Assembly (NCBI GenBank): GCA_017405525.1
Contig: JAFRAH010000020.1
Location: forward strand, 1-39,563
Direction of reading: 5' to 3'
DNA: 39,563 bases
Origin: Synergistaceae bacterium
GTDB lineage: Bacteria > Synergistota > Synergistia > Synergistales > Aminobacteriaceae
Shown in pieces: positions 6,397 to 8,327 of this stretch (positions are counted from its first letter, which is position 1; each line of letters starts with the position of its first letter). Under the pieces are notes generated by a model. It was not told the origin of the DNA, did not search any database, and saw only the letters and a program-made list of their open reading frames with translations. The translations under genes and the position numbers were made by a program.

Positions 6397-6927
6397 CTAT
6401 CTTACGGGTTCAATGAGGCCGTAGCTGTTTTCGCCGCGCTTGTAGACCACGTTGATTTCACCTGATGCCGCATTCTGGAACACAAAGAACGCATGACCCA
6501 CAAGCTCCATCTGCATCACTGCCTCAGCCGCCTCCATAGGATGGACTTCCACCTTCTTGACCTTGTCGATTGCCGGGGCGTTCACGTCCTGTTCTGCCTC
6601 GTCAACGCTGAACGTGAACTCCTCGCCTGCTCCGAGCTGTGCCCTGTCCTTGAGGTATGAGTTGTACTTCTTGATCCTGCGCTCAAGGTTCTTCAGGGAC
6701 TGGTCAAATGCCTTCCTAGGTTCGGGAGCGTCTTCTTCTGCCCTGAGAATTACACCGTTTGCATTGGCCGTAGTCTCGACGTTGAAGCTGCCCTTGTGAT
6801 GGGTTACGACTATCTGGCAGTTCATGATACGCTTGAAGAATTTTTCCAGCTTGGATATTTTCTTCTCCATGTAATCCTTGAGCCTGTCATCAATTTCGCA
6901 CCCGCGCTGTACAAAACGAATGTCCAT
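6397..6927 (-). CDS. hpf: Ribosome hibernation-promoting factor, long form
   Basis: A 176-residue long-form HPF/YvyD protein that binds the 30S A/P region and dimerises 70S ribosomes in stationary phase or starvation. The N-terminal HPF domain (about 1-105) starts MDIRFVQRG and contains the basic helix KKISKLEKFF. The C-terminal dimerisation domain is clear from EVHPMEAAEAVMQMELVGHA and the terminal YGLIEP block. I prefer the ATG at 6927: AGGAGG lies 11 bases upstream, and the longer GTG start would overlap that site. It lies 54 bases downstream of the AroB-like gene in the same direction. It may share that transcript, but a perfect TATAAT in the gap suggests its own promoter too. Confidence 0.92.
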   Translation of the reverse strand: MDIRFVQRGCEIDDRLKDYMEKKISKLEKFFKRIMNCQIVVTHHKGSFNVETTANANGVILRAEEDAPEPRKAFDQSLKNLERRIKKYNSYLKDRAQLGAGEEFTFSVDEAEQDVNAPAIDKVKKVEVHPMEAAEAVMQMELVGHAFFVFQNAASGEINVVYKRGENSYGLIEPVR

Positions 6928-6968
6928 TCTGATTGGCACCTCCTGAAAAGTTAAAAGCTGATGGTGAT

Positions 6969-6974
6969 ATTATA
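6969..6974 (-). promoter_or_regulatory. Possible -10 box for hpf
   Basis: On the minus strand a perfect TATAAT lies about 41 bases before the hpf ATG, in the short gap after the AroB-like gene. No good -35 is visible at normal spacing. Confidence 0.35.
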
Positions 6975-6981
6975 TTACATT

Positions 6982-8049
6982 TTATGCGCCCATGCCCGAC
7001 AAAATCACGCCTTCAAGTTCATTTGCGTCAAGTTCCTTCACCTCACAGCGTCCTATCTCCGACACAGTAACGAGCTCAAAGCTCCCGCCTGAAACCCTCC
7101 GGCCCTGAAGCATTGCCTGAGAGACTGCCTCCGCGCTGAAGTTCAGGCAGACATCAGGAAGCCCGTTCCTCCTGAGTGCGTCAAGTATCCTGTCAGCCGT
7201 CCCGGAACTGCACCAGCTCATTTTTGCCGATGCCCGTGCTGTTATGGCTATACCCTGAGACAGCGCAAGCCCATGCTGAATCTCGTAACCGCTGAGGCTC
7301 TCTATTGCGTTCCCGATTGCGTAGCCAAGGCACTTGCTCCTGACATCCGGGGTCAATCCTGCACGGTACTTTATGCAGCCCTCTATGACACGTTCAAGTT
7401 TGTTCTGGACATCTCCGCGCTCGAATATCTTGAACAATTCCTCGCCTGACATTATGGAGGTCTTGAGGCTCTCAGCAATCCCTGACCTGTACTCTTCGGG
7501 GGATAAGGTCTTGAGGCACTCAATATCACAGAGAACGAGTGAAGGACTGCAGGACATTCCGGCCATGTTCTTCCCGGAGCTCAGGTTCAGGAAGGCACTG
7601 CCCCATGCTGAGACCTCGATCATTGCCGCCAATGTCGTGGGAACGAGGACGAGCCTCACGCCGCCCATGTAGCACCCTGCCGCAAACCCCGCAGTCTCGC
7701 AGACGACACCGCCGCCCAATGCGACAACGAGGCATTTCCCGGACAGTCCGAGCCCGGCCATGTCATCGAGGAGTTTCGCCACAGTCTGGAAGTTCTTTGC
7801 CCCCTCGTGTGAGGCTATGAGGAGCTCGCAAATCCTGACGCGTGAACCTTCGGGCTTTGGGCATTCCTGGAAGTTCATGATTACTTTCTGGAGGTAGAGG
7901 CTTGAGACCTTTTCGTCCGTTACTATGAGAACTTCAGTGTACTCACCTTCTGAGAGCCTGAGCAGCTCAATTCCCAGACGCTCGATTATTCCCCGGCGTA
8001 TCCTGATGCTGTAGCCGTCTTCTCCGTTCACTTTCACATTTGCGGGCAT
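6982..8049 (-). CDS. Divergent 3-dehydroquinate synthase-like protein (active-site residues altered)
   Basis: A 355-residue protein clearly related to 3-dehydroquinate synthase (AroB, shikimate pathway). LVVALGGGVV (NAD-binding, about 107-116), VPTTL (136-140), GKN at 159-161, the metal-ligand Glu at about 193 (GIAESLK) and the last metal-ligand His at about 259 (QHG) remain. Against the canonical family it differs at key points. GGGVVGD becomes GGGVVCE; DSSVGGKTGIN becomes EVSAWGSAFLN (145-155). LGHTFGHAIE becomes LGYAIGNAIE (241-250), losing a zinc-ligand His to Tyr and a catalytic His to Asn. The DKK block near 315 becomes QGRR. It may be an inactive or repurposed homologue. Its leader contains an aromatic-rich attenuator (8072-8327), which argues that it still works in aromatic metabolism. 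Confidence 0.8.
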   Translation of the reverse strand: MPANVKVNGEDGYSIRIRRGIIERLGIELLRLSEGEYTEVLIVTDEKVSSLYLQKVIMNFQECPKPEGSRVRICELLIASHEGAKNFQTVAKLLDDMAGLGLSGKCLVVALGGGVVCETAGFAAGCYMGGVRLVLVPTTLAAMIEVSAWGSAFLNLSSGKNMAGMSCSPSLVLCDIECLKTLSPEEYRSGIAESLKTSIMSGEELFKIFERGDVQNKLERVIEGCIKYRAGLTPDVRSKCLGYAIGNAIESLSGYEIQHGLALSQGIAITARASAKMSWCSSGTADRILDALRRNGLPDVCLNFSAEAVSQAMLQGRRVSGGSFELVTVSEIGRCEVKELDANELEGVILSGMGA

Positions 8050-8071: not shown

Positions 8072-8120
8072 AAAAAAAAGCACCTCCTGAATTTCTCTGG
8101 CTGAGTTTCAGAAGGTGCTT
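8072..8120 (-). terminator. Intrinsic terminator of the attenuator before the AroB-like gene
   Basis: On the minus strand AAGCACCTTCTGAA (8120-8107) pairs with TTCAGGAGGTGCTT (8091-8078) over 14 bp with one wobble, around a 15-base loop, followed by T8 (8079-8072). It lies about 22 bases before the AroB-like start codon and upstream of its AGGAAGGAAGG site. It therefore sits in the leader of that gene as well as behind larE. Its loop carries TCAGCCAGAG, which can pair with leader bases 8176-8167. Confidence 0.9.
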
Positions 8121-8161
8121 GCGTTCTCCGTGTATTGTGTGCTGTGATAGCTTTTCTCCCT

Positions 8162-8257
8162 TTACGTCAGCCAAAGCAATTTAACCCTCTGGAAATAGTA
8201 CCAAGGGTTAAACGTAAATCCGAAATTGACTGCTGATGAAAGGATCGAATTATTCAC
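8162..8257 (-). CDS. Aromatic-rich leader peptide (attenuator)
   Basis: A 31-codon open frame with a GTG start and TAA stop, upstream of the AroB-like gene. Eight of 31 residues are aromatic: Phe12, Phe14, Phe16, Trp19, Tyr20, Tyr21, Phe22 and Trp29, including NPWYYFQ. A GCGGAG site lies 13 bases before GTG, which is somewhat far; no other start is available in the frame. The Trp-Tyr-Tyr-Phe codons (8203-8192) fall in the loop of a 9-bp hairpin (TTTAACCCT/AGGGTTAAA). The stop codon is placed so that a terminating ribosome would cover 8176-8167. This is the layout of leader peptides such as trpL and pheL. The peptide is inferred from sequence only. Confidence 0.7.
   Translation of the reverse strand: MNNSILSSAVNFGFTFNPWYYFQRVKLLWLT
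8180..8212 (-). promoter_or_regulatory. Attenuator hairpin 1 with Trp-Tyr-Tyr-Phe codons in the loop
   Basis: TTTAACCCT (8212-8204) and AGGGTTAAA (8188-8180) form a perfect 9-bp stem. The 15-base loop starts exactly at the UGG codon of the leader peptide. Downstream, CTTTGGCTGA (8176-8167) can pair over 10 bp, with one wobble, with TCAGCCAGAG (8104-8095) in the terminator loop. That gives a plausible antiterminator when ribosomes stall at the aromatic codons. Confidence 0.7.
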
Positions 8258-8298
8258 TGCAAAAAATTATCTCCGCTAAAAATTTTTGAACTGTGAGA

Positions 8299-8327
8299 AT
8301 AATTGCACAATATCCCGCAAATGTCAA
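8299..8327 (-). promoter_or_regulatory. Promoter for the leader peptide and AroB-like gene
   Basis: On the minus strand a perfect TTGACA (8327-8322) is separated by 17 bases from AATTAT (8304-8299; 4 of 6 matches), which is preceded by a TGn extension. The -35 overlaps the TGA stop of larE. Transcription would start near 8292 and give a leader of about 240 bases. Confidence 0.7.

Follow-up and report, generated by a model that had tools for sequence, protein, structure and literature searches.

An aromatic-codon-rich reading frame precedes a gene for a dehydroquinate synthase (DHQS)-like protein, AroB-like hereafter, in a Synergistaceae bacterium. Is this frame the leader of an attenuator, and what would be left for it to control in a genome from which aromatic pathway genes are missing? 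An earlier note on the window, that is, the whole 39,563-nt stretch of DNA analysed, had described five parts of an attenuator: a promoter, a leader ORF, a hairpin, a 10-bp complementarity and a terminator. All five were found on the minus strand, at the positions listed here with the downstream gene.

8299–8327, minus strand: promoter, comprising TTGACA (8327–8322), a 17-nt spacer and an extended TG with AATTAT (8304–8299); from the sequence
8162–8257, minus strand: leader ORF with a GTG start and 31 codons, encoding VNNSILSSAVNFGFTFNPWYYFQRVKLLWLT followed by a stop; from the sequence
8226–8238, minus strand: segment R1, with a UCAGC core, in codons 7–9; from the swap test
8192–8224, minus strand: control codons Phe, Phe, Phe, Trp, Tyr, Tyr, Phe; from the pattern conserved in relatives
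8179–8213, minus strand: pause hairpin around the Trp-Tyr-Tyr-Phe codons; from folds of 33 leaders, all of which form it
8167–8176, minus strand: element B, CUUUGGCUGA (CTTTGGCTGA), putative 5′ strand of the antiterminator; from swap, recoding and compensatory changes
8156–8160, minus strand: GGGAG, putative nested antiterminator strand whose partner is the terminator 5′ arm (8114–8110); from folds lacking the 3′ arm
8095–8104, minus strand: element B′, UCAGCCAGAG (TCAGCCAGAG), terminator loop and putative 3′ strand of the antiterminator; from swap and compensatory changes
8072–8120, minus strand: intrinsic terminator, a 14-bp stem (8120–8107 with 8091–8078) and U8 (8079–8072); from sequence and fold
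6982–8049, minus strand: DHQ-synthase-fold protein of 355 aa without the catalytic residues of DHQ synthase; from profile score, motifs and fold

The leader and its conservation

The promoter, as read on the minus strand, overlaps the stop codon of larE, and its hexamers and 17-nt spacer are the same in 29 of 30 orthologous leaders. The gap between GCGGAG and the GTG start, which the earlier note had considered a weak point, is 13 nt; this is long, yet relatives are similar. The leader ORF contains four Phe, two Tyr and two Trp codons, a composition with a chance probability of 1.3e-4 against a background of 5.1%. Elements B (8176–8167) and B′ (8104–8095) are complementary over 10 bp, and 22 nt separate the terminator from the ATG of the AroB-like gene (8049). 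According to folding calculations, the 231-nt leader region is more stable than 200 of 200 shuffled sequences (z = −3.2). An Rfam scan of the window returned only a tRNA at the gathering score and no leader family. Between 8040 and 8340, searched up to an E value of 10, there was nothing relevant, only two chance eukaryotic matches (E 1–4). The leader matched neither the T-box nor other Rfam leader families, including the Trp and Phe leaders.

We compared 33 leaders from three Synergistaceae genera and fetched 30 loci from the genus of the window (the window and 29 others). The upstream regions of all 30 fetched loci contained the leader ORF, a CTTTGGCTGA-type element and a terminator with a complementary loop. 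An aromatic-rich ORF of 27–35 codons was present in each of the 33 leaders, with 7–13 of these codons specifying Phe, Tyr or Trp (p = 1e-3 to 4e-9 for each leader), and the codons of the relatives followed the pattern (Y/F)F.F.F.(F/R)W(Y)..Q(R). Alignment of the upstream regions of orthologues, the check that the earlier note had proposed, thus revealed conserved aromatic codons, and the stems carried compensating changes. A further 29 genomes of the genus share the complete arrangement, as do the leaders of aro operons in two other genera. The upstream neighbours vary among relatives (larE, giant proteins and others), indicating that the unit is the leader itself.

Within the genus, strong matches to a covariance model of the leader were confined to genomes with the AroB-like gene and to the pathway-competent G027 and G033. 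The gene and the leader are both missing from G014, G016, G017, G031, G034 and G042. In the window's own genome, the leader models matched at one place only, and a second leader was rejected on this ground. Weak model matches in G001, G006, G034, G035, G024, G042, G100 and G166 were also rejected, as they were terminator-like or other hairpins with no aromatic leader before an aro gene.

Pairing of B, B′ and the terminator

To compare native with foreign pairings, B′ was exchanged between species among 28 distinct genus leaders (5000 swaps). Native B:B′ pairs had a mean energy of −12.66 kcal/mol versus −10.32 kcal/mol for swapped pairs (z = −7.3; 0/5000). The terminator stem, serving as the positive control, yielded a z of −6.2, and unrelated segment pairs gave values near 0. 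Changes on both sides of the B:B′ helix occurred at five pairs versus 1.6 in shuffles. Within the genus, one position is occupied by UA, CG, GC or AU and another by GC or UA; across genera, the compensatory changes are UA/CG and GC/GU/AU. Swapping and shuffling leave the effect of shared ancestry in place, and the best guard against it is the occurrence of compensatory changes in separate genera. Mismatches in B:B′ were present in one leader (L008). In the terminator stem, 97.6% of cells were paired and both-sided changes were likewise found at five pairs.

Because B lies in codons, we also recoded the leaders synonymously, using the codon usage of the downstream gene. The native B:B′ pairing was far stronger than the recoded ones (z = −12.5), as was the pause hairpin (z = −10.3; 27/27), which shows selection at the codon level. 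An H-type pseudoknot antiterminator, formed by CAGAGG of the leader and the terminator 5′ arm, was considered and rejected: 92% of cells were kept, there was no covariation and the swap test gave a z of +0.8. Its codon-level signal is accounted for by the pause hairpin, in which the 5′ arm (CUUCUGG) is similar to the terminator arm.

The earlier note had itself pointed out that an antiterminator pairing with the terminator loop spares the 5′ arm. The pairing with the loop was confirmed, and the difficulty is resolved by a second, nested helix on the 5′ arm. More specifically, when the region from B to the loop was folded, with the terminator 3′ arm absent, nearly all genus leaders were predicted to form B:B′ of ∼10 bp together with a helix in which the terminator 5′ arm pairs with the nucleotides that directly follow B (AAGG:CCUU or a comparable pairing). 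This nested helix follows the differing terminator stems of relatives (CGAGG:CCUCG, GAGG:CCUC). It is clear in five of six aro-operon leaders, the remaining one, that of G057, forming B:B′ without a clear nested helix.

In 26 of 33 leaders, the leader stop follows the B core at a distance of 3 nt, which would place B under a ribosome that is terminating there. In L031, the stop is 13 nt before the end of B and masking is therefore less clear. R1 may also pair with B: the swap test over all leaders (z = −3.4, p = 0.0002, n = 33) provides moderate support for this pairing, which is modest inside the genus (z = −1.8 to −2.3 for the genus alone). The R1 and B′ of G033 have the identical sequence CAGTCGAA, with TTCGACTG as B.

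The AroB-like protein and the aromatic pathway

The AroB-like gene is the sole aroB homologue in the window's genome, which is 99.4% complete. Its description in the earlier note as dehydroquinate-synthase-like stands as regards homology and predicted fold, and falls short as regards profile score and active site. Against TIGR01357, the protein scored 191.7 bits, under the curated cut-off of 305. The SVGGK, GHTxGH and DKK motifs hold catalytic and metal-binding residues of DHQ synthase, GHTxGH being the metal-ligand motif. SVGGK and GHTxGH were absent from 14 of 14 AroB-like proteins tested and DKK from 13 of 14; the protein of L031 has a DKK, but elsewhere. All three motifs were present in the canonical Synergistaceae AroB proteins (L033–L038). 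Synergistaceae AroB includes the AroB-like proteins as a single clade (100/100), and both Pfam domains of AroB were found in the protein of the window. Its AlphaFold model had a pLDDT of 88.7; the best PDB matches of this model were all DHQS, with TM scores of ∼0.8–0.9 to DHQS crystal structures. By prediction, therefore, the protein keeps the DHQ synthase fold. The gene evolves under purifying selection, with dN/dS of 0.07–0.15 over 15 pairs.

Matches to the AroB-like gene were found in 32 of 43 genus genomes, including a canonical enzyme in G024 and a contig-end fragment in G030. In G006 and G035 (L029, L030), the AroB-like protein ends at 236 aa, the leader is intact and dN/dS between the two is 0.086.

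Family searches of the window's genome found DAHP synthase, EPSP synthase, chorismate synthase and prephenate dehydratase all to be missing. Chorismate synthase (aroC) is absent from 39 of 43 genus genomes, the window's included, and the four genomes that have it are all without the AroB-like gene. EPSP synthase exceeded the cut-off in three of 43 genomes, with a fragment in a fourth; we read the remaining matches as MurA-like in score. DAHP synthase exceeded it in two of 43, most others scoring ∼110–130 bits, as would be expected for KDO8P synthase. Prephenate dehydratase was found in three of 43. Because the genome is without these pathway enzymes, the AroB-like protein is probably not a working shikimate enzyme. 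Together with the lost motifs, this makes a working dehydroquinate synthase unlikely.

The leader has a different setting in relatives. In G065, G066 and G067 (genus g11) and in G057 (g8), it precedes aroF and then tyrA-aroB-aroA-aroC-pheA; in G027 and G033 it precedes tyrA-aroA-aroC-pheA, with aroK next in G027. These gene names were assigned partly by family searches and partly by reading protein starts, aroF from its start. The leader peptides before aro operons include MRSLNLTAAYFSNYFRFTYYWGKANFCLAGPGKD and LKNINLFAVEYFYYFSRWYCFSGLDCVRLR. As it precedes the aro operons of chorismate-making relatives, the leader appears to be the aromatic-operon attenuator of these Synergistaceae. In the relatives it is thus located on genes for the amino acids that it would sense, and a degenerate aroB is all that is left of these in the window.

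Several loci merit separate mention. Although G027 (contig C75, L195) and G033 (contig C20, L194) have tyrA-aroA-aroC-pheA genes behind the leader, neither aroB nor a DAHP synthase above the cut-off was matched in them; dehydroquinate may be made in a different way, or the assemblies may be incomplete. In G171, a genome assigned to another family, a 3.2-kb contig (C195, L224) has a g11-like leader ahead of aroF; the contig may be misbinned or the leader transferred. Part of the aroB gene of G057 (contig C1, L043) is N in the record. Finally, another, distant aroB, in G070, is preceded by a terminator and a different short ORF containing several codons for Phe and for Trp (L039, 1178–1300); this is possibly an independent attenuator.

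Proposed mechanism, alternatives and known systems

With its conserved aromatic codons and compensating stem changes in orthologous leaders, the locus is very probably what the earlier note took it for, a ribosome-mediated transcription attenuator, and one that would respond when any one of Phe, Tyr and Trp runs short. Under aromatic plenty, the ribosome would reach the leader stop and cover B and the nested strand, such that the terminator forms and transcription stops. When Phe, Tyr or Trp is short, the ribosome would stall in the control codons and leave B unmasked; B would then pair with B′ and the nested strand would take the terminator 5′ arm, so that no terminator forms and the downstream genes are transcribed in vivo. 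In an untranslated leader, R1 would sequester B and the terminator would form. We propose that this switch is ancestral to the aro operon and that, in most species of the genus, chorismate synthesis disappeared and the switch remained on a protein of the DHQ synthase fold. This protein has lost the active site and would have acquired a different role in aromatic starvation.

The loss of the pathway also invites the view that the attenuator and the degenerate aroB are decaying remains of an aro operon with no present function. The ancestral position of the leader, the six genomes without gene and leader, and the 236-aa version in G006 and G035 are in line with such decay. However, the low dN/dS, which includes the truncated pair, the compensatory changes within the auxotroph-only set and the confidently predicted fold make it improbable. 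Also quite improbable is a TnaC-like arrest, in which the leader peptide itself stalls the ribosome on a free aromatic compound and the control codons matter less. Its peptide pattern is positionally conserved (SA.YF.F.F.FWY, Trp being nearly invariant in the genus), but Phe, Tyr and Trp interchange freely at most positions and other genera retain mainly the aromatic richness. Moreover, the conservation of the SA codons is explained by R1:B pairing and that of the QR codons by the pause hairpin. Least credible is an ordinary terminator of the upstream gene beside a chance ORF, with no regulation. Although the terminator follows larE in the window, upstream genes vary among relatives while the promoter, ORF, pairing elements and terminator persist. 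This conservation, with the B:B′ covariation and recoding results, all but refutes it.

Returning to the attenuator, its possible reach includes the next gene downstream.

6397–6939, minus strand: hpf, ribosome hibernation promoting factor, likely ATG at 6927; from family match and neighbourhood
6969–6979, minus strand: extended −10 element TGtaaTATAAT (ATGTAATATAAT) of what is probably an hpf promoter of its own, directly following the AroB-like stop; conserved at the majority of AroB-like loci

In 30 of the 31 genomes that have the AroB-like gene, hpf is the following gene, in the same orientation, and lies ∼90 nt or less away in 28 of them. In genomes without the AroB-like gene, where upstream DNA was readable, hpf has its own promoter-like element and no leader; direct action on hpf as the sole target of the leader was therefore rejected. 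Given this and the −10 element in the window, transcriptional readthrough from the leader into hpf is possible, if unproven. We entertain, tentatively and as the less likely case, that a biosynthetic attenuator has become the starvation sensor of a module, in aromatic auxotrophs, comprising a neofunctionalised DHQ-synthase pseudoenzyme and, by readthrough, HPF. A literature search found nothing on HPF attenuation of such kind.

The leader resembles the trp, phe and his attenuators of Proteobacteria and the trp attenuators of Actinobacteria (PMC1262725) in its short ORF rich in regulatory codons, its pause hairpin, its antiterminator competing with an intrinsic terminator and a stop codon placed for masking the antiterminator strand. 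It differs from them in reading all three aromatic amino acids, in an antiterminator that combines terminator-loop pairing with a nested helix on the 5′ arm, in a sequestering segment early in the leader ORF and in matching no Rfam leader family. The earlier note recognised no precedent for leader control mixing all three aromatic amino acids on a shikimate-type gene. An aromatic leader on an early gene of this pathway exists in Corynebacterium glutamicum, where aroF (DAHP synthase) is preceded by the aromatic leader peptide aroR, containing Phe-Tyr-Phe, whose control of aroF is described as translational in one paper (PMC4046766, PMC7356990). Both leaders precede an early shikimate gene; the phylum and sequence differ, and aroF encodes a working enzyme, whereas the gene here probably does not. 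As for the protein, it shares with AroB (TIGR01357) the fold, both Pfam domains and common ancestry with Synergistaceae AroB, and differs in its score below the curated cut-off, the loss of SVGGK, GHTxGH and nearly always DKK, and genomes without the pathway. Our literature searches found no amino-acid attenuator for Synergistota and nothing on aromatic control in Fretibacterium. The kind of switch is thus known; three-aromatic sensing, a loop-plus-nested antiterminator and retention on a pseudoenzyme are undescribed as far as these searches reach. What is new is an apparent aromatic-operon attenuator kept, under selection, on a predicted pseudoenzyme in aromatic auxotrophs.

Overall, the locus gives Synergistota an amino-acid attenuator that is documented by comparative evidence, one that would integrate Phe, Tyr and Trp for a common-pathway operon. 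After the pathway was lost, selection continued to act on the sensor and on one former enzyme, and what regulators and pseudoenzymes do in such a situation becomes directly testable. With hpf as its neighbour, the locus also points to a possible connection between shortage of particular amino acids and ribosome hibernation; if true, exhaustion of aromatic amino acids would help put ribosomes to sleep.
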